64,000 bases of DNA, taken from contig OZ037931.1 of NCBI GenBank assembly GCA_964035575.1, positions 319,567 to 383,566 of the forward strand. Reading direction: 5' to 3'. Below, piece by piece: positions 19,993 through 38,600 of the stretch. A program made the translations under genes and the position numbers. The stretch comes from Rhynchopus sp. YZ270_cl-10 (taxonomy: Eukaryota; Euglenozoa; Diplonemea; Diplonemida; Diplonemidae). How positions within the stretch are numbered: position 1 is the stretch's first letter; every line of letters begins with the position of its first letter. The notes under the pieces are model-generated. The model did no database searches, was not told where the DNA came from, and worked only from the letters and a program-made list of their open reading frames with translations.

Positions 19993-20026
19993 GATGGACT
20001 AAGCATAGAGAGGCTTAGGTTACATC
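19993..20026 (+). promoter_or_regulatory. Hairpin element, copy 5
   Basis: CTAAGCATAGAGAGGCTTAG forms a 6-bp stem, extended by GATG ... CATC, where other copies have GGTGA ... TCATC. It is followed by TTACGAAC and a long T run. Confidence 0.55.
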
Positions 20027-20061
20027 TTACGAACTTTTTGTTTTTTTTTTTGTGTTTTTTT

Positions 20062-20359
20062 CAGGCTCTCCGCTAGGATTTCCGATTTTGAAAATATTCT
20101 GTTGATGGTCCACGTTGGTGGGGTACATGCTTGCGCCGCAGGCGCACGGTACGCAACTTTTTTTTTTACCAACGCCCGATTTTGACTTTTTTGGGACGTT
20201 TGAGCACTCACCTCTCCATATCTTCTTCTCCTGAGCTTTTTTGACAGGTAGAACGGGTCTGAACCACTTAGCAGAACTTTTTTTTTTTTTCTTTTTTTCC
20301 CCATTTTCAAAAAGTTCTGTTGACAATCAACAGAACTTTAGTACCTAGCGGAGTGCCTG
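20062..20359. mobile_element. hAT-type MITE, copy 1 (inverted relative to 57167-57464)
   Basis: 298 bp. Ends CAGGCTCTCCGCTAGG and CCTAGCGGAGTGCCTG. GTTTTTTT flanks both sides (20054-20061, 20360-20367), an 8-bp duplication. It contains the perfect hairpin AAAGTTCTGTTGA/TCAACAGAACTTT and the module GCCGCAGGCGCACGGTAC. No coding capacity. The 57 kb copy has the same length and its own 8-bp duplication. Confidence 0.85.
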
Positions 20360-20472
20360 GTTTTTTTTTTTTTTTGCAGAGAAAAAAAAAAAAATACCGT
20401 TTCCGCGGCACTCTGCAAAAAATTAGAAATCAACTATAGAAAAGAAAGCAAAAAGCGCCCACTTTGTTTTTA

Positions 20473-20645
20473 TCCCTCCCCTCTCCCCTCTCCCCTTTCC
20501 CCTCTCCCCTCTCCCCTCTCCCCTCTCCCCTCTCCCCTCTCCCCTCTCCCCTCTCCCCTCTCCCCTCTCCCCTCTCCCCTCTCCCCTCTCCCCTCTCCCC
20601 TCTCCCCTCTCCCCTCTCCCCTCTCCCCTTTCCCCTCTCCCCTCT
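20473..20645. repeat. CCCCTCT heptamer array
   Basis: About 24 tandem copies of the 7-mer CCCCTCT with two CCCTTTC variants. A pure pyrimidine strand, and the first array of the composite satellite. Confidence 0.95.
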
Positions 20646-21048
20646 ATCAACCACCCTGGTGGAGTGGCTTTTGCCACGATTGGGGAGATCTAATGGATAT
20701 AGACTGTCTATCTTTTATGTTGACTTTTGTTCTTGCTCTATTTGGGCAGAATAGCTATCATTTCCTCGGAACTCTTCGAGTTCCGGTTGGCCGGGAACGC
20801 AGCTGTGCCGATTAACCCCACCTTTAACACAATTCAACCACCATCTTCATCAGGATTTCTTTGTTTTTGTTGCGGTGTGTTTTCTGCCTTGCGTCCCCCT
20901 CATCGTTTTCGTTTACAGCATATTATCCAAAGACCTCCTCTCCATCCCCCCTTTCTTTTGCCTTTATCATCAGTTCTGGAACCGGTTCGTCGGTCTCCTC
21001 TATTCCTCACTTTTATTGGCTGTCTATATCCTATACTAGATCTCCTCC
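20646..21048. repeat. Satellite unit type A
   Basis: About 400 bp between pyrimidine arrays. The head folds as CAA, CCACCctGGTGG, GTGGCttttGCCAC, TTG, a three-way-junction shape. It is followed by GGGGAGATCTAATGGATATA, whose complement closes the unit (TATATCCTATACTAGATCTC). It shares CACCATCTTCATCAGGATTT and TCCCCCTCATCG with the other units. No gene. Confidence 0.75.
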
Positions 21049-21463
21049 CCTCTCCCCTCTCCCCTCTCCCCTCTCCCCTCTCCCCTCTCCCCTCTCCCCT
21101 CTCCCCTCTCCCCTCTCCCCTCTCCCCTCTCCCCTCTCCCCTCTCCCCTCTCCCCTCTCCCCTCTCCCCTCTCCCCTCTCCCCTCTCCCCTCTCCCCTCT
21201 CCCCTCTCCCCTCTCCCCTCTCCCCTCTCCCCTCTCCCCTCTCCCCTCTCCCCTCTCCCCTCTCCCCTCTCCCCTCTCCCCTCTCCCCTCTCCCCTCTCC
21301 CCTCTCCCCTCTCCCCTCTCCCCTCTCCCCTCTCCCCTCTCCCCTCTCCCCTCTCCCCTCTCCCCTCTCCCCTCTCCCCTCTCCCCTCTCCCCTCTCCCC
21401 TCTCCCCTCTCCCCTCTCCCCTCTCCCCTCTCCCCTCTCCCCTCTCCCTCTCCCTCTCCCTCT
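21049..21463. repeat. CCCCTCT heptamer array grading into CCCTCT
   Basis: About 57 heptamers, the last few units reduced to the hexamer CCCTCT. Proteins predicted from it are low-complexity artefacts. Confidence 0.95.
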
Positions 21464-21833
21464 GAAACACGCTTTAGCGGAGCAGCTTCGCTGCGTGTTG
21501 GGAGATCTTTGATAGAGACTACCGTCCTTTTGATTTGACATGGCACGCACACTGCTTTTTGGCAGAATATTTATTTGATTTTCCTCAGGCTTTGTCCTGG
21601 TTGGCCGGGGTCCGTTTATGTTTCAGTCTCTACCCTCACCAAATCACCACACCATCTTCATCAGATTTTTTGTTGGAATTTGTTTTGGGTTGTTTCGGCT
21701 TCCACATTCGCCCCCCTCATCGTAGCGCCTATTTCGAGATAAAAGTATCCCCCTTCCCTCCTCTCCGTTTTCATCATTGCTGTTCGCCCTTCGCGGGTCT
21801 TTTAGGTACTCTCTATCTATCTCAGATCTCCCT
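21464..21833. repeat. Satellite unit type B, intact (empty insertion site)
   Basis: Head AACAC, GCtttaGC, GCAGCttcGCTGC, GTGTT (21466-21499), then GGGAGATCTTTGATAGAGAC with a near-complement at the end (CTATCTATCTCAGATCTCCC). The 34-bp segment 21688-21721 occurs once here. In two other B units the same segment flanks a retrotransposon on both sides, so this is an unoccupied target. Confidence 0.85.
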
Positions 21834-22213
21834 CCCTCTCCCTCTCCCTCTCCCTCTCCCTCTCCCTCTCCCTCTCCCTCTCCCTCTCCCTCTCCCTCTC
21901 CCTCTCCCTCTCCCTCTCCCTCTCCCTCTCCCTCTCCCTCTCCCTCTCCCTCTCCCTCTCCCTCTCCCTCTCCCTCTCCCTCTCCCTCTCCCTCTCCCTC
22001 TCCCTCTCCCTCTCCCTCTCCCTCTCCCTCTCCCTCTCCCTCTCCCTCTCCCTCTCCCTCTCCCTCTCCCTCTCCCTCTCCCTCTCCCTCTCCCTCTCCC
22101 TCTCCCTCTCCCTCTCCCTCTCCCTCTCCCTCTCCCTCTCCCTCTCCCTCTCCCTCTCCCTCTCCCTCTCCCTCTCCCTCTCCCTCTCCCTCTCCCTCTC
22201 CCTCTCCCTCTCT
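21834..22213. repeat. CCCTCT hexamer array
   Basis: About 63 copies of CCCTCT. Non-coding. Confidence 0.95.
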
Positions 22214-22620
22214 GAAACACGCTTTAGCGGAGCAGCTTCGCTGCGTGTTGGGAGATCTTTGATAGAGACTACCGTCCTTTTGATTTGACATGGCACGCAC
22301 ACTGCTATTTGGCAGAATATTTATTTGATTTTCCTCAGGCTTTGTCCTGGTTGGCCGGGGTCCGTTTATGTTTCAGTCTCTACCCTCACCAAATCACCAC
22401 ACCATCTTCATCAGATTTTTTGTTGGAATTTGTTTTGGGTTGTTTCGGCTTCCACATTCGCCCCCCTCATCTTTTTGTTCCCCCACACACGATTCTTCGC
22501 TTCGCATCCATCTTCTCGTCCCCTTCCAAGCCACCTAGACGCCTCGGTAGTGTGCAGCCTGCTGGGACATATACACCACCTTCGACTCCGCCTTCTCCAC
22601 CCAGTGCACCCCTCGACGCT

Positions 22621-23874
22621 ATGGCCACAGCACACATCACCGATTGTGCTACGCTGTTGGCGGCGTTCGAGGCGCAGACGACGAGCCAGCACGACTGGTC
22701 GCCTCCGGATGCGGCCCTGCGTGCGCTGGGCGTGGAAGAGGGCTCCCCTGCGCTGGTGGGACGCAAGATCCAGTTCGCGGATCTGGCGCGGACGATGCGG
22801 GCCCTGGATAAGGAAGTCGCCCGCCACACCGGCGTCCAGGGGCCAGGGCAGGTGACGCGGTTGGCGATTGTGTCCGCCATCCTCGTCCTCCTCAAGGCGG
22901 AGGTGACGGAGGCGAACAGCGCGATGTTCTCAGAGGGCCAGCGCATGTCCCTCACGCGCCTGGTCGGCACCCTCACGGTGCTGTCCACGGTGCTGGGGGA
23001 CCCCGAGACCCGGTCCCGCCTCAGCGGATCCCGCCCCCCCGCCACCACCGCCGAGACGCCGGTTTTGCCTCAACGTGAGGACAGCCCGGAGGCGTCCATC
23101 CCGCGCGAGCAGCAGCCGCAGCAGCCGCAGCAGACGCAGCCGGCGGCGGACAACGCGCGGATCGCGCAGCTGGAGGCTGCGATGATGGAGTTGGCGGCAG
23201 CGAAGCGGGAGGGGGACGCGCGGCACGAGCTCCTGTGCCAGCAGCTCAACGCGGTCAGGGACGGTGGTGCGCCTCCTCCGGCAGCTGCAGCATCGGACTT
23301 CCTGGCGCAGTTACGGGCGGCGATCGGCACCGGGGCAGCGGCGCCTATGCAGGTGGAACAGCCGGTTATGGGGACGGACGTGGACGTGGTGGCACGCAAC
23401 CCGAGACACTGGGTGGATTTTTGCGCCGACGCCGACCACTGCGCCGACGCTCTGGTGCAGGCCCTGAGGAGGCGCCTGCCTACCGAGGCCGGCGACGCGC
23501 AGGACGGGGCCCGCTTCGCCGTTGATGTGGTGGGTCTGTTGCTGCAGCAAGCTCCCTTGGAGGCGGTGCTGAGAAAGCTCGATGACAGTATCTCCTTCTG
23601 GCAGTTGAGGGCGAGTTGTGGGAGGTCGGGTGCGGTCGCCTTCCGCGACAAGGTCTGGACGGCGGATGTCGTGCCGAAGGACCGGCAGGCGGCGGTGGCG
23701 GCGGCGCACGCAGCAGGGCGTGGTGCGAAGTCCGGGCACGGGGGTGGCCGGGCCGGGCAGGCGTACGGGGGTGGCAACGGGGGGGGCCAGGCCGCGCAGC
23801 CGTACGCGCCGGGAAACGGTGGTGGCAGAGGCCGAGGCGGGGGAGGGCATTGGCGCGGTGGTCAACGCAAGTGA
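22621..23874 (+). CDS. Gag-like protein of retrotransposon copy 1
   Basis: 417 residues from the ATG inside the element (MATAHITDC). The longer open frame upstream runs through the target repeat and is not used. The middle has a Gln/Pro-rich linker (QQPQQPQQTQP) and a coiled-coil-like stretch (IAQLEAAMMELAAAKREGDA). The C-terminus is Gly/Arg-rich (GGRAGQAYGGGNGGG, RGRGGGGHWRGGQRK), a likely nucleic-acid-binding tail in place of a CCHC zinc knuckle. It is expected to package element RNA. Assignment rests mainly on position and composition. Confidence 0.7.
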   Translation: MATAHITDCATLLAAFEAQTTSQHDWSPPDAALRALGVEEGSPALVGRKIQFADLARTMRALDKEVARHTGVQGPGQVTRLAIVSAILVLLKAEVTEANSAMFSEGQRMSLTRLVGTLTVLSTVLGDPETRSRLSGSRPPATTAETPVLPQREDSPEASIPREQQPQQPQQTQPAADNARIAQLEAAMMELAAAKREGDARHELLCQQLNAVRDGGAPPPAAAASDFLAQLRAAIGTGAAAPMQVEQPVMGTDVDVVARNPRHWVDFCADADHCADALVQALRRRLPTEAGDAQDGARFAVDVVGLLLQQAPLEAVLRKLDDSISFWQLRASCGRSGAVAFRDKVWTADVVPKDRQAAVAAAHAAGRGAKSGHGGGRAGQAYGGGNGGGQAAQPYAPGNGGGRGRGGGGHWRGGQRK

Positions 23875-24009
23875 CGAGAGCAGGCGGCAGCGCGCGTTAC
23901 GCTCTCCCTCCCACCACCCTCCCCCCCCTCTCCCCCCCCTCTTGTTTTTTCTTCCCCCCCCCCACGGCCCTCCCCGCCAAAACACACATCCGCCGAGTTT
24001 TCTTCCGAA

Positions 24010-25005
24010 ATGCTGCTTCAGGCTTTGCGCAAGCCGAAGAAGGGTCTCGGGGTGGCGAGGAGGAAGGAGGTGGACGACTGCGTGTTCCGCCTCCGCGACG
24101 GCAAGCAGGCCGCGCGCGCTTTGGCCCATCTTGTCCCGTGGGACCAAGCGCACACTTTCGACGTGGGGCCCCGAGCAGCAGGCACCCGCGACTGGCTGCT
24201 CCGAGCGTTCCGGCAGTTCGCCGAAGGGGAGACCGAGACCACGCCTCCCGACCAGACGTTGATTCGGTTCGTCTGGGGTCGCCTGCGCGGAGCGTCGTCC
24301 CTCTCCGTGGCCGACTACTGCGGGCGGCTGCTGAAGGCACTGGCGGCCGAGGGGGAGACGGGATACCGCACGCGCCGGGTGCTGGCGGTGAAGCGCGCGC
24401 TGACGCGTTTCGGGACGTTGCTGAGGCCGAGTCAGGCGCCGCCGGTAGACGTGGACGCGGTGATGGACGTGGTCGAGGCTTTCGGTCGCGAGGGGGCCGA
24501 GCGCGAACGGGCGTTTGTGGCCTTGGTGTGGATGGCACGGGCGCGTATGGCGGACGCACGATACCTGCTGGTGCGCGACCTGGTGGAGGTGACAGACGAG
24601 GGCGCGACGGGGCTGGAAGTCGCCCTGAAGGAGAAGCAGCAGAAGAGCTGGACACCCGTGGTGTATTTGCCACCCGGGACGCTTACCCAATACGTGGTGG
24701 AATGGGCACGCGCGCGTCGCTTGGCGGAAGGACAGGACGCGCCGTTGTTTGCAGCGACCGAGACGCAGTACCAGCGCCTCATGCGTCGGGTGGTGGGGGC
24801 TCTGCCGGCAGGGTCCTGGGCGCACTCGCTTCGCAGGGGGTCAGCGCAGGCCCTGCAATCCTGGGGGATGAGCGTGGACGGACTGAGGGACGCGCTGCGC
24901 CACGCGTCATCCAGAACGACGGTGCGTTACCTCATGCGTACGGCGCCCGAGGCTCGCAGGAAGGCACGCTCGACGCTGGACGTCCTGCAGGAGCGGCCGC
25001 TGTAG
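24010..25005 (+). CDS. Tyrosine recombinase of retrotransposon copy 1
   Basis: 331 residues. The catalytic constellation is visible: box I Arg in MARARMADARYLLVRDL (about residue 180), HSLRRG (H272, R275), then RHASSRTTVRYL with H298 and the Tyr307 nucleophile. A Lys-rich beta turn (ALKEKQQKSW) precedes. Such enzymes insert DIRS-order elements as circular DNA by strand exchange, without the target duplication made by DDE integrases. The N-terminal half (SLSVADYCGRLLKALAAEG) resembles a SAM-like core-binding domain. All key residues are present, so this copy may be active. Stop at 25003-25005, immediately before the RT region. Confidence 0.85.
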   Translation: MLLQALRKPKKGLGVARRKEVDDCVFRLRDGKQAARALAHLVPWDQAHTFDVGPRAAGTRDWLLRAFRQFAEGETETTPPDQTLIRFVWGRLRGASSLSVADYCGRLLKALAAEGETGYRTRRVLAVKRALTRFGTLLRPSQAPPVDVDAVMDVVEAFGREGAERERAFVALVWMARARMADARYLLVRDLVEVTDEGATGLEVALKEKQQKSWTPVVYLPPGTLTQYVVEWARARRLAEGQDAPLFAATETQYQRLMRRVVGALPAGSWAHSLRRGSAQALQSWGMSVDGLRDALRHASSRTTVRYLMRTAPEARRKARSTLDVLQERPL

Positions 25006-26711
25006 GTTGGTTGTTCCGGGGGTTGGACGGGTACCCGTTGGGGGAGTATGTGCGTGACGAGGGGGATGACGTGGTGGAGGCGGATGTTGAGACGTCTGCG
25101 GCGCCTCCGCATGTGCTCTTGGATGATGTCGCTGGGGTCTGGGGTGGCCCATCTGGGGTGAAGCGGCAGGTGCTTGACTCATTCCCGGCGGGTCTGATTG
25201 ATTTGGGGGCGCTCCGCCGACTGGTACCGGCGAAGGCCAGGTTGTTCGCAATGCTTGACGACATTGCGACTTTCCGTGCGCAGCTGACGGGGTCTGGGGT
25301 GTCGATGCCGGGCCCGCCCTCCAAGCTCCAGGACGGCATGTTGGCGGCGTGCGTGGGTAGTGGGGTTTTGCGCACGGAGAAGCGAGCTTTCCCGTCGGTG
25401 TGTGGGCTGTCTGTGTTTCCGCTGGCGAAGACGAACGGCAAGATGCGTCTCATCGTTGACGCACGGCCGTTGAACACGGCGATGCACTCCCCGCCAAAGT
25501 TCAGCCTCCCTACACCATACGAGCTGTCGGAACTCATCCTACGCGGGGGCGCTACGCATGCAGTCGTGGCGGATTTCAAAGGGTTTTTCTGGCAATTCCC
25601 TTTGTCCGCGGAGGTGGGGCAGTTTTTTGGTGTGCGGCAGGGTGCGCGTCGCATGCAGCTTAACCGCATGGCGATGGGGTGGTCGTGGGCGGCGGTGATT
25701 GCGCAGGAGACGTCGCTGGGGCTTCTCGGGGATATGGCGGGTGTGTGTGCTGCTGCGTGGATAGACGACAACCTCATTTTGGGGAAGTCGGCGGGTGAGG
25801 CGTCTGCGCGGCTTCGGGGGTTCCTGCGCAGAGCGGACGAAGTTGGCGCTGAGGTGAACCGCGAGAAGTCGACGCTCACTCCGGTACAGGTGTGTACCTA
25901 CGCAGGGATTGAGTGGGATTTGCGGGGGCGCAGAATGCGGCTGCCGGGGGAGTGGCGTCGGAAGGCCCGTGTCGTGATGGACGTATTGCTGTCGGCGTCG
26001 GGTCCCTCGCTGCGCGAAGTGTGGAAAGGTATCGGGGCCGTCATCTGGGCGACGTATGCGATGGGGGACCGGTTCTGCGGGGTGCCGGACATGTTGGCGT
26101 GGATTCGTGCGCGGGGCGCCGAGGTGTCTGCGGGCGCGATTGACTGGGACGACCAGGTGCAGATCTCTGCGGGCATGCGGACGGACTTGTGTGTGTTTGT
26201 GGAGCGGCGATTGGTGCCGGATGTGTGGCGCGTCCCCAGGTGGAAGCTGTCGCCGGAGGAGGGGTGTGACACGGTGGTGTGGTCGGACGCGTGCCCCGAG
26301 GGGTGGGGGTTTATTGTGCGGACGCTTGCTGGCGGGCGCGCTTTCAGGAAGTGGGGCACGTGGTCCACGGTCGAGGATATTTTCATTTTGGAGTTGCGGG
26401 CGATGGCCTGGGGCGTGCTGCATGCTGTACGTGGTGGCGCCCGCAGGATTTTGGTGGTGGGGGACAACGCCGCGGTGGTTGCTGTGCTGGAGAAGGGCCA
26501 CTGTGCAGTCAGGTTAGGGAACACGGTCTTGGAGCGCCTGTTTCGGGTCACTGACGGGGCGGGTGCGGGCATGTTGTCGCGCTGGATCGCGACGGACCGT
26601 ATGCCGGCGGACGAGCTGTCGCGCTGGGGTACCGCTGGGCAGGACTGGGCCGACCCCCCGTCGGACGGCGTGGTGGTCGACGGTGGCGGTTTTATGTGGT
26701 CGGACGAGTGA
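25002..26711 (+). CDS. Reverse transcriptase/RNase H of retrotransposon copy 1
   Basis: About 569 recognisable residues from VGWLFRG. The frame is open from 23616, overlapping the recombinase in another frame, and the true start or frameshift is unclear. RT motifs: KTNGKMRLIVDARPLN (about 143), ADFKGFFWQF (catalytic Asp 191), MAMGWSWA (about 227), WIDDN (253-257, the catalytic Asp pair). RNase H motifs: WSDACPEGWGF (Asp 429), ILELRAMAWG (Glu), VVGDNAAVV (Asp 488), MPADELSRWG (Asp). It copies element RNA into DNA. No methyltransferase domain follows, unlike DIRS1. Confidence 0.88.
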   Translation, partial: VGWLFRGLDGYPLGEYVRDEGDDVVEADVETSAAPPHVLLDDVAGVWGGPSGVKRQVLDSFPAGLIDLGALRRLVPAKARLFAMLDDIATFRAQLTGSGVSMPGPPSKLQDGMLAACVGSGVLRTEKRAFPSVCGLSVFPLAKTNGKMRLIVDARPLNTAMHSPPKFSLPTPYELSELILRGGATHAVVADFKGFFWQFPLSAEVGQFFGVRQGARRMQLNRMAMGWSWAAVIAQETSLGLLGDMAGVCAAAWIDDNLILGKSAGEASARLRGFLRRADEVGAEVNREKSTLTPVQVCTYAGIEWDLRGRRMRLPGEWRRKARVVMDVLLSASGPSLREVWKGIGAVIWATYAMGDRFCGVPDMLAWIRARGAEVSAGAIDWDDQVQISAGMRTDLCVFVERRLVPDVWRVPRWKLSPEEGCDTVVWSDACPEGWGFIVRTLAGGRAFRKWGTWSTVEDIFILELRAMAWGVLHAVRGGARRILVVGDNAAVVAVLEKGHCAVRLGNTVLERLFRVTDGAGAGMLSRWIATDRMPADELSRWGTAGQDWADPPSDGVVVDGGGFMWSDE

Positions 26712-26991
26712 TGTCCTTAGATTATTCTTATTTTAGATTGCCTTCTGTTTTTTCTTCCAGCTTTTCATTAAAGCTGTTTCCCTGCCCTGTTTTTTGTCCG
26801 CTGTTTTTTTGCAGTGGCTTTTGGTTTTATTTCTGGATGCCTGCGCCCGCTGAGGCTTGGTGTCGTATCATTGGTTTTTTGTTCACTCCGCCTTTTTTCT
26901 GGGCCCTCGGGGGTCCTGTGTTTTTGTTTGTAGTTGGGATGGATGCTCTCGTGGCCTACGGGTTTAAATATTCTACGTGACGGTGTCAGGA
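26712..26991 (+). other. 3' non-coding tail of retrotransposon copy 1
   Basis: T-rich, no ORF of note. Contains CTTTTCATTAAAGCTG and ends TACGTGACGGTGTCAGGA immediately before the right direct repeat. No copy of the 5' interior was found here, so classical A1-B1A2B2 split repeats are not evident. Confidence 0.6.
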
Positions 26992-27136
26992 GGTTGTTTC
27001 GGCTTCCACATTCGCCCCCCTCATCGTAGCGCCTATTTCGAGATAAAAGTATCCCCCTTCCCTCCTCTCCGTTTTCATCATTGCTGTTCGCCCTTCGCGG
27101 GTCTTTTAGGTACTCTCTATCTATCTCAGATCTCCC

Positions 27137-27480
27137 TCTCCCTCTCCCTCTCCCTCTCCCTCTCCCTCTCCCTCTCCCTCTCCCTCTCCCTCTCCCTCTC
27201 CCTCTCCCTCTCCCTCTCCCTCTCCCTCTCCCTCTCCCTCTCCCTCTCCCTCTCCCTCTCCCTCTCCCTCTCCCTCTCCCTCTCCCTCTCCCTCTCCCTC
27301 TCCCTCTCCCTCTCCCTCTCCCTCTCCCTCTCCCTCTCCCTCTCCCTCTCCCTCTCCCTCTCCCTCTCCCTCTCCCTCTCCCTCTCCCTCTCCCTCTCCC
27401 TCTCCCTCTCCCTCTCCCTCTCCCTCTCCCTCTCCCTCTCCCTCTCCCTCTCCCTCTCCCTCTCCCTCTCCCTCTCCCTC
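27137..27480. repeat. CCCTCT hexamer array
   Basis: About 57 pure copies of CCCTCT between unit B (with retrotransposon copy 1) and unit C. Confidence 0.95.
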
Positions 27481-27815
27481 TTCACAATCAAACTTGTTTG
27501 AGCAGCTTTGCTGCGGATTGGGGGGTTCGGATAAAAAGACATAAAAATAATAGCGACAATTCCTCTCACTTTTTGATATTTTCTACCACTTACTTACGGT
27601 AAGGTTGGAAGGGGACCGGGAATAAACAACACCTCCTTCATCAGGATTTTCAATTTTTGATTCCCTAGTCGGTGTGTTTCTCCTCCCCCGTACGTTTTAC
27701 TTCACATCGGGTTTGTTTTTGGTTAGGGGGGGGGGCTTTTTCTCTTCAACACATACTTGTTTGACTTTGAGCAAAGAATAAAGACTGGTCTTTTTATCTT
27801 TCCGGACCCCCCCCT
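27481..27815. repeat. Satellite unit type C, copy 1
   Basis: Head CAATC, AAACttGTTT, GCAGCtttGCTGC, GATTG. Terminal inverted sequence GGGGGGTTCGGATAAAAAGA against TCTTTTTATCTTTCCGGACC. Shares CCTTCATCAGGATTTT with the other units. Repeated at 34033-34366. Confidence 0.75.
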
Positions 27816-28141
27816 CTCCCTCTCCCTCTCCCTCTCCCTCTCCCTCTCCCTCTCCCTCTCCCTCTCCCTCTCCCTCTCCCTCTCCCTCTCCCTCTCCCTC
27901 TCCCTCTCCCTCTCCCTCTCCCTCTCCCTCTCCCTCTCCCTCTCCCTCTCCCTCTCCCTCTCCCTCTCCCTCTCCCTCTCCCTCTCCCTCTCCCTCTCCC
28001 TCTCCCTCTCCCTCTCCCTCTCCCTCTCCCTCTCCCTCTCCCTCTCCCTCTCCCTCTCCCTCTCCCTCTCCCTCTCCCTCTCCCTCTCCCTCTCCCTCTC
28101 CCTCTCCCTCTCCCTCTCCCTCTCCCTCTCCCTCTCCCTCT
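27816..28141. repeat. CCCTCT hexamer array
   Basis: About 54 copies of CCCTCT, directly after the C run that ends unit C. Confidence 0.95.
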
Positions 28142-28548
28142 GAAACACGCTTTAGCGGAGCAGCTTCGCTGCGTGTTGGGAGATCTTTGATAGAGACTAC
28201 CGTCCTTTTGATTTGACATGGCACGCACACTGCTATTTGGCAGAATATTTATTTGATTTTCCTCAGGCTTTGTCCTGGTTGGCCGGGGTCCGTTTATGTT
28301 TCAGTCTCTACCCTCACCAAATCACCACACCATCTTCATCAGATTTTTTGTTGGAATTTGTTTTGGGTTGTTTCGGCTTCCACATTCGCCCCCCTCATCT
28401 TTTTGTTCCCCCACACACGATTCTTCGCTTCGCATCCATCTTCTCGTCCCCTTCCAAGCCACCTAGACGCCTCGGTAGTGTGCAGCCTGCTGGGACATAT
28501 ACACCACCTTCGACTCCGCCTTCTCCACCCAGTGCACCCCTCGACGCT

Positions 28549-29802
28549 ATGGCCACAGCACACATCACCGATTGTGCTACGCTGTTGGCGGCGTTCGAGG
28601 CGCAGACGACGAGCCAGCACGACTGGTCGCCTCCGGATGCGGCCCTGCGTGCGCTGGGCGTGGAAGAGGGCTCCCCTGCGCTGGTGGGACGCAAGATCCA
28701 GTTCGCGGATCTGGCGCGGACGATGCGGGCCCTGGATAAGGAAGTCGCCCGCCACACCGGCGTCCAGGGGCCAGGGCAGGTGACGCGGTTGGCGATTGTG
28801 TCCGCCATCCTCGTCCTCCTCAAGGCGGAGGTGACGGAGGCGAACAGCGCGATGTTCTCAGAGGGCCAGCGCATGTCCCTCACGCGCCTGGTCGGCACCC
28901 TCACGGTGCTGTCCACGGTGCTGGGGGACCCCGAGACCCGGTCCCGCCTCAGCGGATCCCGCCCCCCCGCCACCACCGCCGAGACGCCTGTTTTGCCTCA
29001 ACGTGAGGACAGCCCGGAGGCGTCCATCCCGCGCGAGCAGCAGCCGCAGCAGCCGCAGCAGACGCAGCCGGCGGCGGACAACGCGCGGATCGCGCAGCTG
29101 GAGGCTGCGATGATGGAGTTGGCGGCAGCGAAGCGGGAGGGGGACGCGCGGCACGAGCTCCTGTGCCAGCAGCTCAACGCGGTCAGGGACGGTGGTGCGC
29201 CTCCTCCGGCAGCTGCAGCATCGGACTTCCTGGCGCAGTTACGGGCGGCGATCGGCACCGGGGCAGCGGCGCCTATGCAGGTGGAACAGCCGGTTATGGG
29301 GACGGACGTGGACGTGGTGGCACGCAACCCGAGACACTGGGTGGATTTTTGCGCCGACGCCGACCACTGCGCCGACGCTCTGGTGCAGGCCCTGAGGAGG
29401 CGCCTGCCTACCGAGGCCGGCGACGCGCAGGACGGGGCCCGCTTCGCCGTTGATGTGGTGGGTCTGTTGCTGCAGCAAGCTCCCTTGGAGGCGGTGCTGA
29501 GAAAGCTCGATGACAGTATCTCCTTCTGGCAGTTGAGGGCGAGTTGTGGGAGGTCGGGTGCGGTCGCCTTCCGCGACAAGGTCTGGACGGCGGATGTCGT
29601 GCCGAAGGACCGGCAGGCGGCGGTGGCGGCGGCGCACGCAGCAGGGCGTGGTGCGAAGTCCGGGCACGGGGGTGGCCGGGCCGGGCAGGCGTACGGGGGT
29701 GGCAACGGGGGGGGCCAGGCCGCGCAGCCGTACGCGCCGGGAAACGGTGGTGGCAGAGGCCGAGGCGGGGGAGGGCATTGGCGCGGTGGTCAACGCAAGT
29801 GA
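28549..29802 (+). CDS. Gag-like protein of retrotransposon copy 2
   Basis: 417 residues, identical in organisation to the copy 1 protein, including the Gln/Pro linker and the Gly/Arg-rich C-terminus. The start is the ATG at MATAHITDC. At least one silent difference is visible (CCG/CCT before GTTTTGCC). Confidence 0.7.
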   Translation: MATAHITDCATLLAAFEAQTTSQHDWSPPDAALRALGVEEGSPALVGRKIQFADLARTMRALDKEVARHTGVQGPGQVTRLAIVSAILVLLKAEVTEANSAMFSEGQRMSLTRLVGTLTVLSTVLGDPETRSRLSGSRPPATTAETPVLPQREDSPEASIPREQQPQQPQQTQPAADNARIAQLEAAMMELAAAKREGDARHELLCQQLNAVRDGGAPPPAAAASDFLAQLRAAIGTGAAAPMQVEQPVMGTDVDVVARNPRHWVDFCADADHCADALVQALRRRLPTEAGDAQDGARFAVDVVGLLLQQAPLEAVLRKLDDSISFWQLRASCGRSGAVAFRDKVWTADVVPKDRQAAVAAAHAAGRGAKSGHGGGRAGQAYGGGNGGGQAAQPYAPGNGGGRGRGGGGHWRGGQRK

Positions 29803-29937
29803 CGAGAGCAGGCGGCAGCGCGCGTTACGCTCTCCCTCCCACCACCCTCCCCCCCCTCTCCCCCCCCTCTTGTTTTTTCTTCCCCCCCCCCACGGCCCTC
29901 CCCGCCAAAACACACATCCGCCGAGTTTTCTTCCGAA

Positions 29938-30921
29938 ATGCTGCTTCAGGCTTTGCGCAAGCCGAAGAAGGGTCTCGGGGTGGCGAGGAGGAAGGAGGTG
30001 GACGACTGCGTGTTCCGCCTCCGCGACGGCAAGCAGGCCGCGCGCGCTTTGGCCCATCTTGTCCCGTGGGACCAAGCGCACACTTTCGACGTGGGGCCCC
30101 GAGCAGCAGGCACCCGCGACTGGCTGCTCCGAGCGTTCCGGCAGTTCGCCGAAGGGGAGACCGAGACCACGCCTCCCGACCAGACGTTGATTCGGTTCGT
30201 CTGGGGTCGCCTGCGCGGAGCGTCGTCCCTCTCCGTGGCCGACTACTGCGGGCGGCTGCTGAAGGCACTGGCGGCCGAGGGGGAGACGGGATACCGCACG
30301 CGCCGGGTGCTGGCGGTGAAGCGCGCGCTGACGCGTTTCGGGACGTTGCTGAGGCCGAGTCAGGCGCCGCCGGTAGACGTGGACGCGGTGATGGACGTGG
30401 TCGAGGCTTTCGGTCGCGAGGGGGCCGAGCGCGAACGGGCGTTTGTGGCCTTGGTGTGGATGGCACGGGCGCGTATGGCGGACGCACGATACCTGCTGGT
30501 GCGCGACCTGGTGGAGGTGACAGACGAGGGCGCGACGGGGCTGGAAGTCGCCCTGAAGGAGAAGCAGCAGAAGAGCTGGACACCCGTGGTGTATTTGCCA
30601 CCCGGGACGCTTACCCAATACGTGGTGGAATGGGCACGCGCGCGTCGCTTGGCGGAAGGACAGGACGCGCCGTTGTTTGCAGCGACCGAGACGCAGTACC
30701 AGCGCCTCATGCGTCGGGTGGTGGGGGCTCTGCCGGCAGGGTCCTGGGCGCACTCGCTTCGCAGGGGGTCAGCGCAGGCCCTGCAATCCTGGGGGATGAG
30801 CGTGGACGGACTGAGGGACGCGCTGCGCCAAACGACGGTGCGTTACCTCATGCGTACGGCGCCCGAGGCTCGCAGGAAGGCACGCTCGACGCTGGACGTC
30901 CTGCAGGAGCGGCCGCTGTAG
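29938..30921 (+). CDS. Tyrosine recombinase of retrotransposon copy 2, motif-deleted
   Basis: 327 residues. Same as copy 1 except that RHASSRTTVRYL has become RQTTVRYL. The 12-nt in-frame deletion removes the conserved histidine (H298 of copy 1) and the small residues that follow, nine residues before the tyrosine nucleophile. HSLRRG and the tyrosine remain. In this enzyme family the His/Trp at that place helps stabilise the transition state, so loss or strong reduction of activity is expected. The frame remains open, so this is annotated as a CDS rather than a pseudogene. Confidence 0.8.
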   Translation: MLLQALRKPKKGLGVARRKEVDDCVFRLRDGKQAARALAHLVPWDQAHTFDVGPRAAGTRDWLLRAFRQFAEGETETTPPDQTLIRFVWGRLRGASSLSVADYCGRLLKALAAEGETGYRTRRVLAVKRALTRFGTLLRPSQAPPVDVDAVMDVVEAFGREGAERERAFVALVWMARARMADARYLLVRDLVEVTDEGATGLEVALKEKQQKSWTPVVYLPPGTLTQYVVEWARARRLAEGQDAPLFAATETQYQRLMRRVVGALPAGSWAHSLRRGSAQALQSWGMSVDGLRDALRQTTVRYLMRTAPEARRKARSTLDVLQERPL

Positions 30922-32627
30922 GTTGGTTGTTCCGGGGGTTGGACGGGTACCCGTTGGGGGAGTATGTGCGTGACGAGGGGGATGACGTGGTGGAGGCGGA
31001 TGTTGAGACGTCTGCGGCGCCTCCGCATGTGCTCTTGGATGATGTCGCTGGGGTCTGGGGTGGCCCATCTGGGGTGAAGCGGCAGGTGCTTGACTCATTC
31101 CCGGCGGGTCTGATTGATTTGGGGGCGCTCCGCCGACTGGTACCGGCGAAGGCCAGGTTGTTCGCAATGCTTGACGACATTGCGACTTTCCGTGCGCAGC
31201 TGACGGGGTCTGGGGTGTCGATGCCGGGCCCGCCCTCCAAGCTCCAGGACGGCATGTTGGCGGCGTGCGTGGGTAGTGGGGTTTTGCGCACGGAGAAGCG
31301 AGCTTTCCCGTCGGTGTGTGGGCTGTCTGTGTTTCCGCTGGCGAAGACGAACGGCAAGATGCGTCTCATCGTTGACGCACGGCCGTTGAACACGGCGATG
31401 CACTCCCCGCCAAAGTTCAGCCTCCCTACACCATACGAGCTGTCGGAACTCATCCTACGCGGGGGCGCTACGCATGCAGTCGTGGCGGATTTTAAAGGGT
31501 TTTTCTGGCAATTCCCTTTGTCCGCGGAGGTGGGGCAGTTTTTTGGTGTGCGGCAGGGTGCGCGTCGCATGCAGCTTACCCGCATGGCGATGGGGTGGTC
31601 GTGGGCGGCGGTGATTGCGCAGGAGACGTCGCTGGGGCTTCTCGGGGATATGGCGGGTGTGTGTGCTGCTGCGTGGATAGACGACAACCTCATTTTGGGG
31701 AAGTCGGCGGGTGAGGCGTCTGCGCGGCTTCGGGGGTTCCTGCGCAGAGCGGACGAAGTTGGCGCTGAGGTGAACCGCGAGAAGTCGACGCTCACTCCGG
31801 TACAGGTGTGTACCTACGCAGGGATTGAGTGGGATTTGCGGGGGCGCAGAATGCGGCTGCCGGGGGAGTGGCGTCGGAAGGCCCGTGTCGTGGTGGACGT
31901 ATTGCTGTCGGCGTCGGGTCCCTCGCTGCGCGAAGTGTGGAAAGGTATCGGGGCCGTCATCTGGGCGACGTATGCGATGGGGGACCGGTTCTGCGGGGTG
32001 CCGGACATGTTGGCGTGGATTCGTGCGCGGGGCGCCGAGGTGTCTGCGGGCGCGATTGACTGGGACGACCAGGTGCAGATCTCTGCGGGCATGCGGACGG
32101 ACTTGCGTGTGTTTGTGGAGCGGCGATTGGTGCCGGATGTGTGGCGCGTCCCCAGGTGGAAGCTGTCGCCGGAGGAGGGGTGTGACACGGTGGTGTGGTC
32201 GGACGCGTGCCCCGAGGGGTGGGGGTTTATTGTGCGGACGCTTGCTGGCGGGCGCGCTTTCAGGAAGTGGGGCACGTGGTCCACGGTCGAGGATATTTTC
32301 ATTTTGGAGTTACGGGCGATGGCCTGGGGCGTGCTGCATGCTGTACGTGGTGGCGCCCGCAGGATTTTGGTGGTGGGGGACAACGCCGCGGTGGTTGCTG
32401 TGCTGGAGAAGGGCCACTGTGCAGTCAGGTTAGGGAACACGGTCTTGGAGCGCCTGTTTCGGGTCACTGACGGGGCGGGTGCGGGCATGTTGTCGCGCTG
32501 GATCGCGACGGACCGTATGCCGGCGGACGAGCTGTCGCGCTGGGGTACCGCTGGGCAGGACTGGGCCGACCCCCCGTCGGACGGCGTGGTGGTCGACGGT
32601 GGCGGTTTTATGTGGTCGGACGAGTGA
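30918..32627 (+). CDS. Reverse transcriptase/RNase H of retrotransposon copy 2
   Basis: About 569 recognisable residues. All RT motifs (ADFKGFFWQF, MAMGWSWA, WIDDN) and RNase H acidic residues (WSDACPEGW, ELRAMAWG, VVGDNAAVV, PADELSRWG) are intact. Substitutions relative to copy 1 are few (N to T before RMAMG, M to V in RVVMDVLL, C to R in TDLCVF). Start unclear, as for copy 1. Confidence 0.88.
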   Translation, partial: VGWLFRGLDGYPLGEYVRDEGDDVVEADVETSAAPPHVLLDDVAGVWGGPSGVKRQVLDSFPAGLIDLGALRRLVPAKARLFAMLDDIATFRAQLTGSGVSMPGPPSKLQDGMLAACVGSGVLRTEKRAFPSVCGLSVFPLAKTNGKMRLIVDARPLNTAMHSPPKFSLPTPYELSELILRGGATHAVVADFKGFFWQFPLSAEVGQFFGVRQGARRMQLTRMAMGWSWAAVIAQETSLGLLGDMAGVCAAAWIDDNLILGKSAGEASARLRGFLRRADEVGAEVNREKSTLTPVQVCTYAGIEWDLRGRRMRLPGEWRRKARVVVDVLLSASGPSLREVWKGIGAVIWATYAMGDRFCGVPDMLAWIRARGAEVSAGAIDWDDQVQISAGMRTDLRVFVERRLVPDVWRVPRWKLSPEEGCDTVVWSDACPEGWGFIVRTLAGGRAFRKWGTWSTVEDIFILELRAMAWGVLHAVRGGARRILVVGDNAAVVAVLEKGHCAVRLGNTVLERLFRVTDGAGAGMLSRWIATDRMPADELSRWGTAGQDWADPPSDGVVVDGGGFMWSDE

Positions 32628-33053
32628 TGTCCTTAGATTATTCTTATTTTAGATTGCCTTCTGTTTTTTCTTCCAGCTTTTCATTAAAGCTGTTTCCCTG
32701 CCCTGTTTTTTGTCCGCTGTTTTTTTGCAGTGGCTTTTGGTTTTATTTCTGGATGCCTGCGCCCGCTGAGGCTTGGTGTCGTATCATTGGTTTTTTGTTC
32801 ACTCCGCCTTTTTTCTGGGCCCTCGGGGGTCCTGTGTTTTTGTTTGGAGTTGGGATGGATGCTCTCGTGGCCTACGGGTTTAAATATTCTACGTGACGGT
32901 GTCAGGAGGTTGTTTCGGCTTCCACATTCGCCCCCCTCATCGTAGCGCCTATTTCGAGATAAAAGTATCCCCCTTCCCTCCTCTCCGTTTTCATCATTGC
33001 TGTTCGCCCTTCGCGGGTCTTTTAGGTACTCTCTATCTATCTCAGATCTCCCT

Positions 33054-33423
33054 GAAACACGCTTTAGCGGAGCAGCTTCGCTGCGTGTTGGGAGATCTTT
33101 GATAGAGACTACCGTCCTTTTGATTTGACATGGCACGCACACTGCTATTTGGCAGAATATTTATTTGATTTTCCTCAGGCTTTGTCCTGGTTGGCCGGGG
33201 TCCGTTTATGTTTCAGTCTCTACCCTCACCAAATCACCACACCATCTTCATCAGATTTTTTGTTGGAATTTGTTTTGGGTTGTTTCGGCTTCCACATTCG
33301 CCCCCCTCATCGTAGCGCCTATTTCGAGATAAAAGTATCCCCCTTCCCTCCTCTCCGTTTTCATCATTGCTGTTCGCCCTTCGCGGGTCTTTTAGGTACT
33401 CTCTATCTATCTCAGATCTCCCT
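33054..33423. repeat. Satellite unit type B, intact (second empty site)
   Basis: Follows the occupied unit directly, with only CCCT between AGATCT and GAAACACGC, so the hexamer array can shrink to almost nothing. The single junction segment lies at 33278-33311. Confidence 0.85.
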
Positions 33424-34032
33424 CCCTCTCCCTCTCCCTCTCCCTCTCCCTCTCCCTCTCCCTCTCCCTCTCCCTCTCCCTCTCCCTCTCCCTCTCCCTC
33501 TCCCTCTCCCTCTCCCTCTCCCTCTCCCTCTCCCTCTCCCTCTCCCTCTCCCTCTCCCTCTCCCTCTCCCCTCTCCCCTCTCCCTCTCCCTCTCCCTCTC
33601 CCTCTCCCTCTCCCTCTCCCTCTCCCTCTCCCTCTCCCTCTCCCTCTCCCTCTCCCTCTCCCTCTCCCTCTCCCTCTCCCTCTCCCTCTCCCTCTCCCTC
33701 TCCCTCTCCCTCTCCCTCTCCCTCTCCCTCTCCCTCTCCCTCTCCCTCTCCCTCTCCCTCTCCCTCTCCCTCTCCCTCTCCCTCTCCCTCTCCCTCTCCC
33801 TCTCCCTCTCCCTCTCCCTCTCCCTCTCCCTCTCCCTCTCCCTCTCCCTCTCCCTCTCCCTCTCCCTCTCCCTCTCCCTCTCCCTCTCCCTCTCCCTCTC
33901 CCCTCTCCCCTCTCCCTCTCCCTCTCCCTCTCCCTCTCCCTCTCCCTCTCCCTCTCCCTCTCCCTCTCCCTCTCCCTCTCCCTCTCCCTCTCCCTCTCCC
34001 TCTCCCTCTCCCTCTCCCTCTCCCTCTCCCTC
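33424..34032. repeat. CCCTCT hexamer array with two CCCCTCT interruptions
   Basis: About 100 hexamers. Heptamer pairs near 33568 and 33900 mark an internal duplication of the array. Confidence 0.95.
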
Positions 34033-34366
34033 TTCACAATCAAACTTGTTTGAGCAGCTTTGCTGCGGATTGGGGGGTTCGGATAAAAAGACATAAAAAT
34101 AATAGCGACAATTCCTCTCACTTTTTGATATTTTCTACCACTTACTTACGGTAAGGTTGGAAGGGGACCGGGAATAAACAACACCTCCTTCATCAGGATT
34201 TTCAATTTTTGATTCCCTAGTCGGTGTGTTTCTCCTCCCCCGTACGTTTTACTTCACATCGGGTTTGTTTTTGGTTAGGGGGGGGGGCTTTTTCTCTTCA
34301 ACACATACTTGTTTGACTTTGAGCAAAGAATAAAGACTGGTCTTTTTATCTTTCCGGACCCCCCCC
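34033..34366. repeat. Satellite unit type C, copy 2
   Basis: Near-identical to 27481-27815, with the same head structure and ends. Confidence 0.75.
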
Positions 34367-34416
34367 TCTCCCTCTCCCTCTCCCTCTCCCTCTCCCTCTC
34401 CCTCTCCCTCTCCCTC
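34367..34416. repeat. Short CCCTCT array
   Basis: About eight hexamers between units C and D. Confidence 0.9.
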
Positions 34417-34716
34417 TTCCCCAGTTAACTTGTTAAAGCAGCTTTGCTGCGACATGGGGAGATCTGGTGTTACTGTAGATGATAGTATAAGATGCTTTGG
34501 TCCATTTTTGCTTTTATTACCTCTTTGCTCTGCAAAGGTTGGAACGGGAAAGTCAAAACACACCACCTTCATCAGGAATTTTTTCCACAAATTTGTTTCC
34601 CCGGTGTGTTTTCCTTCCCTCGTACGTCACAATAAACGAAACCCCTCCTCACATTGTTTTTGTTGCGCTTTCAGGACCTCATCGACGGATCACTATTTGT
34701 ACACCAGATCTCCCCC
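34417..34716. repeat. Satellite unit type D
   Basis: Head CCCCA, TTAACttGTTAA, GCAGCtttGCTGC, TGGGG. Terminal inverted sequence GGGGAGATCTGGTGT against ACACCAGATCTCCCC. Shares ACCACCTTCATCAGGA with other units. About 300 bp, the shortest type. Confidence 0.75.
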
Positions 34717-35590
34717 TCTCCCTCTCCCTCTCCCTCTCCCTCTCCCTCTCCCTCTCCCTCTCCCTCTCCCTCTCCCTCTCCCTCTCCCTCTCCCTCTCCC
34801 TCTCCCTCTCCCTCTCCCTCTCCCTCTCCCTCTCCCTCTCCCTCTCCCTCTCCCTCTCCCTCTCCCTCTCCCTCTCCCTCTCCCTCTCCCTCTCCCTCTC
34901 CCTCTCCCTCTCCCTCTCCCTCTCCCTCTCCCTCTCCCTCTCCCTCTCCCTCTCCCTCTCCCTCTCCCTCTCCCTCTCCCTCTCCCTCTCCCTCTCCCTC
35001 TCCCTCTCCCTCTCCCTCTCCCTCTCCCTCTCCCTCTCCCTCTCCCTCTCCCTCTCCCTCTCCCTCTCCCTCTCCCTCTCCCTCTCCCTCTCCCTCTCCC
35101 TCTCCCTCTCCCTCTCCCTCTCCCTCTCCCTCTCCCTCTCCCTCTCCCTCTCCCTCTCCCTCTCCCTCTCCCTCTCCCTCTCCCTCTCCCTCTCCCTCTC
35201 CCTCTCCCTCTCCCTCTCCCTCTCCCTCTCCCTCTCCCTCTCCCTCTCCCTCTCCCTCTCCCTCTCCCTCTCCCTCTCCCTCTCCCTCTCCCTCTCCCTC
35301 TCCCTCTCCCTCTCCCTCTCCCTCTCCCTCTCCCTCTCCCTCTCCCTCTCCCTCTCCCTCTCCCTCTCCCTCTCCCTCTCCCTCTCCCTCTCCCTCTCCC
35401 TCTCCCTCTCCCTCTCCCTCTCCCTCTCCCTCTCCCTCTCCCTCTCCCTCTCCCTCTCCCTCTCCCTCTCCCTCTCCCTCTCCCTCTCCCTCTCCCTCTC
35501 CCCTCTCCCTCTCCCTCTCCCTCTCCCTCTCCCTCTCCCTCTCCCTCTCCCTCTCCCTCTCCCTCTCCCTCTCCCTCTCCCTCTCTGGAT
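34717..35590. repeat. Longest CCCTCT hexamer array, up to the CFAP46 gene
   Basis: About 145 hexamers with one CCCCTCT near 35498. It ends 54 bases before the CFAP46 start codon. The intervening sequence is pyrimidine-rich and ends CCCAACCCAAG shortly before the ATG. Confidence 0.95.
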
Positions 35591-35643
35591 TCCCTCTCCC
35601 TCTCCACCTATTTTACTCTCAACCCAACCCAAGGTGATACACA

Positions 35644-38600
35644 ATGAGCACATTGGCCTTGCGGCTATGCGCACAGCTCGACGCAACGCGGCAGCTGCGA
35701 GATAAACAGCTGCCCCAGGCGCTCTCTCAGGTGCGGAAGGTGCACCAGACGTTGTGCGCTGCGGTACATGACTCGGTCGTTGTGGCAGGCCTGCCGAGTG
35801 TCGAGCTGCCTTACGACCTATTTCTGTATGTCGCGGAGACAGCTGCGTTTCTTGGCGAATGGGATGTGGTCAAGAAATGCTGTGAGAGTCTGAGTGCACA
35901 CCATCCTACGACACCAGCATTGACCTGCAGATTCCTTTTCTGTCAATGCATGCTGCACACCAGAGACGCATCCGGCCAGGTAGGGGAACGTCTCGTTGAC
36001 AAGGTGCAAACCGCTGTCGCAAAGGCCTTAAAAGGAATGCAACTCGCTCTGCAAGACAAAGAACACCACTCCCACCTTGTTGTCCGCGGATCTGAACACT
36101 GCTGGAACGCAGTTCGAGTCCTCTACGCAAACGGAACCAGTGGAGTTCTTCTCAACACCCTAAAAGAAGTGAACTCTGGGCTAGAAGCGGTGCAACACAA
36201 AGATTGGGGGAAAAGAGTGACCTGGCTTCTCCGTCAAGCTGTCGCAGAGATTGCAAGCGGAAAAGACCCAAAACCGACTGTCGCAAACGCAGTCTCAATT
36301 TGCGACAAAAATGGCTTGGACCATTTAAAACGGCCATTAAAAAGAGTACAAATGGCTATGAAGATCGAAGGCTCCAAAGGGGCAGCACCGGGGGTTATGC
36401 GTGGAATCGCAGCATGCCAGGCTGTATACAGCAGATTGGGGGATGAAAAGGAACAGGCTACAGATTTACAGGCAGCCTATCAGGATCTTGCTTCGTCCAC
36501 CTTGGTGGGGGCCTCCTTGGGGAAGAGGGTGGCATCAAAGACAACACCTAAGGACGAACCAACAAAGGACACAAAAGGGGGCAAGGGAGCGGCACCCCCT
36601 GCAGTCACCGAAACCGACATCCGCGACAAAGAAGAAGTTCTTGCCGAGGTGGGCCTCCTTGCCGCCCTGCACCCCCTCCCTCCCCTCGCAGAGAACCCTC
36701 TATCTGATGAAACCCCTGCACGCAGCCAACGCTACCGTCTCTTTACGTTATACTCAAACGCTGTGAAAGCTTCAGAAGAGTCAGGAGCAGCAGAATTAAC
36801 GAAAGATCACTTCCATGCGTCGCCTTCAGAGATGTATCCTATTGCCTTAGAGAATATGCTGCCCGCGATTGCGCAGGATACGTCAAAAAAGGCGGCAAAT
36901 TCACCAAGTCTCCGGGCCAGAGTCTTAGCGGAATATACCGCTGCAGTGTTGATTGTAAAGCGTGCAGGAGGGTACGATGTGCAAAGAGAAAAATATGCGA
37001 ATCGATGCACTCCAGAAATGACACAGCAGATTGTCCTAGGGGTGCGGCATCTAGTGAAAGCATTGGAGAGCGCGGTGCGGACGAATGACATTCATCTTAC
37101 CCAGCAAGGATGTGTTCTTGTATGGAATATGGTGCTCCCGCTGCTTAACCCTGAGACACGCGGGTTGGTATCTAAATCGTTGCAGTCGACCCTTCATATT
37201 TTAGATTCTATGTCTTCAAATCTACATCGTCTTAAGGTTCACCTCCTATGTGAGCTAGCGTACTGCGATGTCGCGGATGAATACCTGGCAAAAGCTAAAG
37301 TCCGCGTCACCCAAGCACTCTGTGAGAACTACGTAGTGGACGAAGAAGAAGCCAGTCTATATGGAATACCACGCCCCCTCGACCGCTTCCTCGAACCACT
37401 TCAACAGCGTCTCGAGCTAAAGGCTGATATGTACTACGTCCCCGACACCCGAACCGCTAAGGACGAAGCAGAAAGGGAGCGCATCACACGAGAGGAGGTG
37501 ATTCTCCTATTAGATAGGGCGGCCGATACGAAGGCGGTAGGGTCTTTGGTGCATATGCTGCAGAATGCGCATACGTTGATGCTTGGAACAGAGCCTCCGT
37601 TGGATTGGGTGACACCACCAGAGCCGGAGGCGGTGCCGGTGGACCCTAAGGGGAAGAAGAGGAAGAGTATCACCGATGTACCCCCGCCAGCACCAAGCTT
37701 GGATGCTGCAGAGGAGAATAGACGGCATGAAGTGCTGCGTGCGCGTGGTGCCCTGTGGGCGCAGTTGCTGAACACTGCGTGGAAGAATCCGCACCCAAAG
37801 CTGATAGCCATAGTGAGAAGTACAGCGCCGAAGCTGATGTGCAGGAAGTGGGGGCACCATGCGGAGAGGCAGCTGCGGATCGATCAGTTGCAGGCGTGTT
37901 TGACGTGTGCTGATACGCATGTGGTGGAGTTGAAGGCAAAAGGATACAGCATAGGCCAAAGGGTGTTCCGCAGTGCGGCAGGCGATCCGTTAGAGGAGCA
38001 TGAAGCGGTGAGTCTGCGTGCGGAGGTGCTCAGTACGCAGGATGCGATTAATGAGCAGTTTACGTTGGCGTTAGACTTCGCCCCAGCGGTGCTGGCGCAG
38101 GGGGACAGCTGGCTGGTGGCGAACATTGCGGTGATGTATCTGAATTGGCACACCCCGTTGATCGCTGCGAAGGACTTCATACACTCATACACACTCGAGA
38201 CGCATGTGCAGAAGGATGGTACCAGTGGGCTCTTGGCGTTGACGCTAGGTGCTGGTATGGTTTCTACCAGTGTGACGCCTGATTCGCATGCAGAGGCTGC
38301 AGGGCTGAAGAAGGGGATGTGCATCACGAAGATCAACGGCGAGGCGGTTACGACGAATGAATCGTATGAGGCCGCACTGCGCGCATCCCCGAAGGTGGTG
38401 GTCAACGTGACTGCGAAGGCGCCTCTGGAGTACCCCGTCAAGGCGGTGCTTGAGAAGCTGCTTGAGGTGCTGTGCCTGCCGGGCATGGGCATAGTCCCGC
38501 AGTGCTCGCCGTATGAGGCAGATCTGCTGGCGCAGGCAGGTCGTGCGCTGTCGCTGTCCTTCCTGCAGGAGTACGTGCAGACAAAGCTCCCCCTCGGCAC

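Follow-up and report, generated by a model that had tools for sequence, protein, structure and literature searches.

Why should two 4.5-kb elements interrupt the units of a CCCTCT satellite at the same point, each flanked by the same 34 bp, with uninterrupted units beside them? The question is raised by a 64,000-nucleotide stretch of the euglenozoan Rhynchopus sp. YZ270_cl-10 (hereafter the window), which spans C99:319567-383566 (contig OZ037931.1) in a genome of 152 Mb and 126 contigs. An earlier note on this DNA had read the arrangement as a set of occupied and empty sites (attB/attL/attR-like), left by a circular element that integrates at a matching position of pre-existing B units of the satellite; one insertion followed by block duplication was its alternative. 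Our analysis makes it very probable that the window holds two copies of a young VIPER/TATE-type tyrosine-recombinase (YR) retrotransposon, and that the B unit is the AB repeat of the element itself.

The interrupted satellite unit and the element

The unit order of the element is A1, a gag-like frame, YR, reverse transcriptase/RNase H (RT/RH), B1, CCCT and A2B2; in full copies an A1 of 258 bp is followed by 4.5 kb, a B1 of 142 bp, CCCT, A2 and B2, with a CTCCCT array nearby or not (Table 1). The last 34 bp of A and the first 34 bp of B are the same segment, GGTTGTTTCGGCTTCCACATTCGCCCCCCTCATC, and the B satellite unit, 370 bp long, is an AB repeat of the element, split by the internal region within these common 34 bp. 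As the earlier note had reported, the segment stands on both sides of copy 1 (22438-22471 / 26992-27025) and of copy 2 (28366-28399 / 32908-32941). Its single occurrences at 21688-21721 and 33278-33311 are also real, but neither marks an empty site: copy 1 is followed by B1 only and copy 2 by B1, CCCT and a complete unit, so the segment at 33278-33311 belongs to the A2B2 of copy 2, and the one at 21688 lies in a solo AB unit. A genome scan with up to three mismatches found 200 occurrences of the segment and none of a reversed control pattern; the repeat is far beyond chance, yet it is no evidence of a target site.

Table 1. Features of the window that belong to the two element copies and their surroundings
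Feature	Window position	Strand	Remarks
Satellite unit A	20643..21046	+	Diverged relative of the B-family AB unit
Solo AB unit	21464..21829	+	First "empty site" of the earlier note
CT-rich tract (CTCCCT)n left of copy 1	21832..22212	+	
Copy 1, repeat A1, 258 bp	22214..22471	+	Last 34 bp = GGTTGTTTCGGCTTCCACATTCGCCCCCCTCATC; stretch L033 is window copy 1
Copy 1, internal region, 4520 bp	22472..26991	+	
Copy 1, open reading frame (ORF) 1, gag-like by position alone, 417 aa	22621..23874	+	No Pfam match
Copy 1, ORF2, tyrosine recombinase, 331 aa	24010..25005	+	Phage_integrase match
Copy 1, ORF3 frame, reverse transcriptase / RNase H, 568 aa	25005..26711	+	RVT_1, RVT_3
Copy 1, repeat B1, 142 bp	26992..27133	+	Then (CTCCCT)n array, no A2B2
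CT-rich tract right of copy 1	27131..27481	+	
Satellite unit C	27483..27812	+	Probable solo split direct repeat of another family
CT-rich tract left of copy 2	27812..28141	+	
Copy 2, repeat A1	28142..28399	+	Stretch L034
Copy 2, internal region, 4508 bp	28400..32907	+	
Copy 2, repeat B1	32908..33049	+	
B1/A2 joint of copy 2	33036..33106	+	Predicted hairpin; inverted arms 33036-33052 / 33090-33106
CCCT spacer between B1 and A2 of copy 2	33050..33053	+	
Copy 2, A2B2	33054..33419	+	Second "empty site" of the earlier note
CT-rich tract right of copy 2	33422..34033	+	
Satellite unit C, second copy	34035..34364	+	C99:353601-353930
Satellite unit D	34418..34712	+	Solo split direct repeat of a sister YR retrotransposon family

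Copies across the genome

Pattern scans with up to three mismatches gave 39 left and 45 right ends, which, paired by hand, make about 48 copies genome-wide; a scan with 1001 element bases likewise matched many contigs (best 40 of 46 candidates scored). We read 27 stretches of 9.5-10 kb around these copies. With overlaps counted once, they contain 27 distinct copies with a right end: 17 carry the full set of four repeats, a whole A1 is missing from 7 (L010, the second L012 copy, L020, L021, L026, L028 and L031) and A2B2 from 3 (L016, L017 and window copy 1); at L029 the left end is present and the right end absent. The spacer is CCCT in every copy with an A2 except L010, where it is CTCT. The genomic sites listed cover 34 of 45 right ends and 100 of 134 A/B sites; among them, A2B2 follows B1 in 28 of 34 cases, and the 100 A/B sites divide into 34 B1, 28 A2B2 and 38 that are neither and count as solo by position only, 15 of them at most 12 kb from an element end. 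At C81:680293-680855, where a copy has lost most of its length, just some 560 bp separate the left from the right end of the element.

Flanking sequence and target

On their outer sides, A1 and the last B directly border CT-rich tracts made of (CT)n, (CTCCCT)n, (CTCCCC)n or a 13-base CT-rich motif, and the unique sequence beyond them differs locus by locus. On the left, a pure-pyrimidine tract of at least 31 nt adjoins 19 of the 20 distinct ends with a whole A1 (L010 and L021 uncounted), the exception being L029, with 7 pure pyrimidines inside a CT-rich minisatellite; on the right, a tract of at least 19 nt, the element's own CCCT counted in, is present at 26 of 27 ends. Five of the 32 rows of this flank comparison were dropped as repeats from overlapping loci. 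As background, pure pyrimidine or purine runs of at least 24 nt cover 362 of the 48661 window bases outside the array. CT-rich simple repeats seem to be where the element inserts. It is important to note that the A1...B1-A2B2 order also occurs where the stretch read contains no CTCCCT array (for example L009, L011, L024, L025, L027 and L035), and, since the same anatomy is found in (CT)n, (CTCCCC)n and other CT-rich tracts without such an array, the B unit is not the target.

Repeats of one copy and the origin of the arrangement

The repeats within a single copy mostly carry the same changes. A1 equals A2 in 15 of the 17 complete copies, the exceptions being L022 and L032, each with a deletion in one of the two, and B1 equals B2 in 16 of 17. 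Several changes unique to one copy occur in both of its repeats: T158G in the A repeats of L025, T164C in the A repeats of L030, C121T in the B repeats of the second L012 copy, and a 7-bp insertion together with T112C in the B repeats of L010. The L030 repeats further share C63T and T173C (A) and an inserted T (B), which recur in other copies. Templated duplication at each transposition leads to such sharing between A1 and A2 and between B1 and B2, and none is expected from a pre-existing target unit.

Two other origins of the arrangement have to be considered. The first is homing of a circular element, via its recombinase, to the 34-bp site within pre-existing B units, which would account for the constant junction and for 34 bp that are single in solo units and double around inserts. 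However, in this model the target would supply A1 and B2, and the circle A2 and B1, and the changes found in one copy mostly occur in both its A or both its B repeats; A1 and B1A2B2 also accompany copies that lie in unrelated CT tracts, and a sister family, D, is arranged alike with a different sequence and a 24-bp overlap. We therefore reject homing to the B unit as highly improbable: what had been taken for occupied and empty sites are full elements on the one hand and, on the other, AB repeats that stand alone much as a solo long terminal repeat does, and, of the integration proposed earlier, the recombinase route remains likely while the matching B site does not stand, as copies lie in other CT tracts. 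The second and least credible origin, a single insertion followed by block duplication of satellite and element, survives only for local tandem groups, such as the four consecutive copies with closely similar flanks at C25:421000-447200 (L015-L018, two without A2B2), which are a local block amplification, and in part perhaps the two window copies, and it is rejected for the dispersed copies, which are spread over many contigs and whose outer flanks differ by locus in motif and unique sequence and thus do not represent one duplicated block.

Several observations weigh against an element that carries its own AB repeats into CT tracts. The repeats of a single copy are not identical in L020, L022, L023 and L032, and each B of L010 carries one further change that the other lacks, differences that later mutation would explain. 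Six of the 34 listed B1 are without A2B2, as is window copy 1, and the A1 of L021 is truncated at its start. In L010 the internal 5' end (C6:773727, minus strand) adjoins other DNA without an A1, and to the right of the copy, where the flank is a CTGTCTCCACG repeat, there are only 3 pure pyrimidines. This 5' end lacks the 34-bp segment, and insertions without the segment are among the findings that the earlier note had named as refuting its own proposal. In addition, the target tract is repetitive, hence a short target duplication would not be recognisable; copy-to-copy divergence is so low that informative changes are few; our reading covered 27 stretches, 20 more copies being known by coordinates, four of these also by a 4-kb piece; and neither a circle nor a cDNA of the element was seen.

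Coding region and classification

The Phage_integrase match of the ORF at 24010-25005 (E 2.6e-5, 24.5 bits) falls just below the curated cut-off of 27.1; HxxR (as HSLR) and a late tyrosine, which we take to be the recombinase motif, are visible in its translation. The frame at 25005-26711 matches RVT_1 (E 3.7e-11) and, weakly and below the cut-off, RVT_3 (E 0.0033). All 20 near full-length copies keep a gag-like frame of at least 400 aa and a YR frame of at least 320 aa, and the stop-free RT run measures 641-646 codons in 19 of them and 479 in one. Stop-free runs were used for RT, as requiring a methionine start gave 0 of 20 frames, probably because the RT frame has no early methionine.

A tyrosine-recombinase retroelement with the ORF order of VIPER and TATE, as first proposed, is what the Phage_integrase and subsequent RVT_1/RVT_3 matches indicate, with the gag-like frame assigned by position only and the integrase and RNase H matches below cut-offs. 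Split direct repeats (SDRs) of the form A1 / B1A2B2 are present as well, and, judged by these two features of its sequence, the element is of the VIPER-like class. Protein searches returned 4 and 6 proteins, none carrying the name of a source, and reached no named VIPER or TATE protein. A DIRS1-like element is rejected, as the A/B repeats are direct and no inverted repeat of at least 30 nt was found in 18000-36000. In Ngaro elements RT/RH comes before YR, which lies downstream; in the Rhynchopus element YR precedes RT, and membership in Ngaro is rejected by this order.

Known systems share much of the anatomy. In the partial accounts at hand, VIPER and TATE carry SDRs A1 / B1A2B2; VIPER/SIRE of Trypanosoma cruzi and other trypanosomatids has gag-like, YR and RT/RH frames and SDRs as here, its short solo form SIRE (A2B2) corresponding to our solo AB, and neither a CT-tract target nor a 34-bp A/B overlap is mentioned in them (PMC6681497, PMC12278014). 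TATE of Leishmania braziliensis, as described in part of PMC6681497, shares the SDRs and YR-RT/RH and occupies one relative position in a simple repeat, the telomeric hexamer; unlike TATE proper, the Rhynchopus element sits in CT-rich tracts inside contigs, and no telomeric hexamer insertion was seen in the flanks of the copies read. TATE-like ORFs have been reported in the diplonemid Diplonema papillatum, according to an excerpt of PMC10161547. Ngaro of Cafeteria burkhardae is outlined as A1-[ORFs]-B1A2B2, as here, with scattered isolated AB repeats likened to solo long terminal repeats (PMC8547959, in part). The element is a new family whose anatomy was already known from VIPER/TATE and whose solo AB form was known from SIRE. 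The CT-tract target and the folded B1/A2 joint described below may be new; in the titles and abstract openings of the open-access papers that our searches listed, we found neither CT-tract targeting nor a hairpin joint in the VIPER/TATE-type group.

Proposed transposition route and predicted fold of the B1/A2 joint

The genomic RNA would contain one full B1/A2 joint, from which the outer parts missing from A1 and B2 could be regenerated during reverse transcription. The YR might then act on the B/A joint, in DNA that is circular or folded, and recombine it with a CT tract matching its end (ATCTCCCT, up to the boundary); a circular donor would carry the joint AGATCTCCCT-GAAACACG. Solo AB units would be left by inter-repeat recombination, through the YR or by homology, and a CCCTCT satellite with varied units would be a CT tract struck repeatedly by several related families.

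The joint itself is predicted to fold. In copy 2 its arms are 17 nt long, 88% complementary and 37 nt apart, and as DNA they form a predicted single hairpin with a 3-nt bulge over the B/A boundary (-23.1 kcal/mol, z -7.43, reached by 0 of 200 shuffles); the D-family joint is also predicted to fold (z -5.49). The integrated right end has no predicted fold (z -0.34) and the left end a shorter one (z -3.74). Across six families (A, B, C, D, E and G), with the shared motif excluded, no other start pairs as well with a given end as the start of the same family, and the summed pairing was reached by 1 of 720 permutations, the actual one; the margins are small in some families (G -13.3 vs -12.9; C -13.6 vs -12.7), and in D and E perfect runs reach 5 at most. 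The joined end-start RNA stretches of all six families fold better than 200 shuffles each (z -4.77 to -7.82), the A, C, E and G joints being virtual, with the exact base chosen by the analyst.

Two readings of this hairpin compete. It could be an RNA signal, for priming, packaging or RNA stability, and not a recombination site, which we consider quite possible, somewhat short of an even chance: the joint folds as RNA too (predicted z -6.64 and -5.10) and is internal to any RNA running through it. Against this, the B-family bulge spans the boundary at which element ends meet target DNA, that of D adjoins it with an ambiguous register (placement is clean only in B), and inverted arms flanking the crossover suit a YR site. 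Tentatively, and with less confidence than in an RNA signal, we suggest that the donor site may be a folded strand, in which the bulge of a B/A hairpin of more than 20 bp would be the crossover. In integron attC sites, extrahelical bases have a role. The YR would join folded cDNA to unstructured CT tracts much as the integron integrase uses attC, where a tyrosine recombinase recognises folded DNA hairpins (PMC11641012, seen in part), a working resemblance only; several families would keep the fold by compensatory change and so turn pyrimidine tracts before genes into a solo-repeat satellite. If true, the folded donor would enlarge the group of tyrosine recombinases believed to act on single-stranded sites.

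Sister families and the other satellite units

Landmarks along their length are common to units A, B, C and D. On C51 and C16 the halves of unit C are separated by 6.6 and 6.7 kb (best 40 of 58 candidates scored), and the unit is probably the split repeat of another retrotransposon. For unit D, the series half 1-197, half 174-279, full unit recurs on C17, C7, C15, C62 and C34 (40 of 102 candidates scored), with a full unit 91% identical on C34 and an A/B overlap of 24 bp; we assign unit D to a sister retrotransposon, as its split repeat. The D-family copy in L020 matches Phage_integrase weakly (E 0.018) and then RVT_1 (E 1.6e-21), following the order of the B family, and its RT is 32% identical to the B-family RT over 500 residues; compared with the B-family YR, the D-family RT frame showed no similarity, as expected of a frame without YR. 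Further unit types E, F and G occur in flanks and start with a similar hairpin. They were seen at L009:7577-7900, L030 (minus) from 7984, L035:7803-8140 and L023 (minus) from about 7580; read by eye, the A half of F (L030) and of G (L023) runs into an ATG frame, and these are probably sister elements. The CCCTCT satellite is best read as a CT tract plus solo SDRs of several families, so that what looked like a homing satellite can be read as a record of solo repeats.

A known RNA or ribozyme in the units is rejected, as the four cmscan matches of 20300-36000 (E<=1) are all below gathering scores. A possible splice acceptor is the CACC(A)TCTTCATCAG-like stretch at 21650-21664, which has counterparts at the corresponding position of units A, C and D. 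Units A-G pair a G-rich start with a C-rich end, reminiscent of the noncanonical diplonemid introns that, in the part of PMC12621601 available, are said to be possibly derived from MITE-like elements.

Gene context

In the window, a CTCCCT array ends 39 bases before an ATG on the same strand (35580-35644), which opens at 35644 a CFAP46-like ORF of 2719 aa. Among 14 right flanks chosen by the analyst, a same-strand ATG frame of at least 300 aa (339-606 aa) starts within 220 nt of the tract in four (L020, 216 nt; L022, 77; L027, 57; L028, 81) and farther off, at 734 nt, in L026; L010 and L022 have such a frame on the opposite strand, and eight of the 14 have none on either. The L022 frame contains a SAP domain, that of L027 has only sub-cut-off matches and that of L028 no domain match. 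This arrangement would fit pyrimidine tracts serving trans-splicing. A CT-tract target would offer a simple reason for persistence in a polycistronic genome, namely landing in pyrimidine tracts between genes, where elements could borrow trans-splicing and polyadenylation signals. About 48 copies with sharp ends are available for a group whose terminal repeats, by the portion of PMC6681497 consulted, were described only in 2019.

The Flagellar_rod family has 30 matches in this genome and none in 14 control genomes, which points to a euglenozoan host. At C14:1213001-1213020 (minus) there is a single match, with one mismatch, to what we presume to be the 3' end of the euglenozoan spliced leader. 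Lastly, the window contains perfect tandem arrays of TGTATACTG at 61034-61348 and of GTACTGT at 62703-63198.

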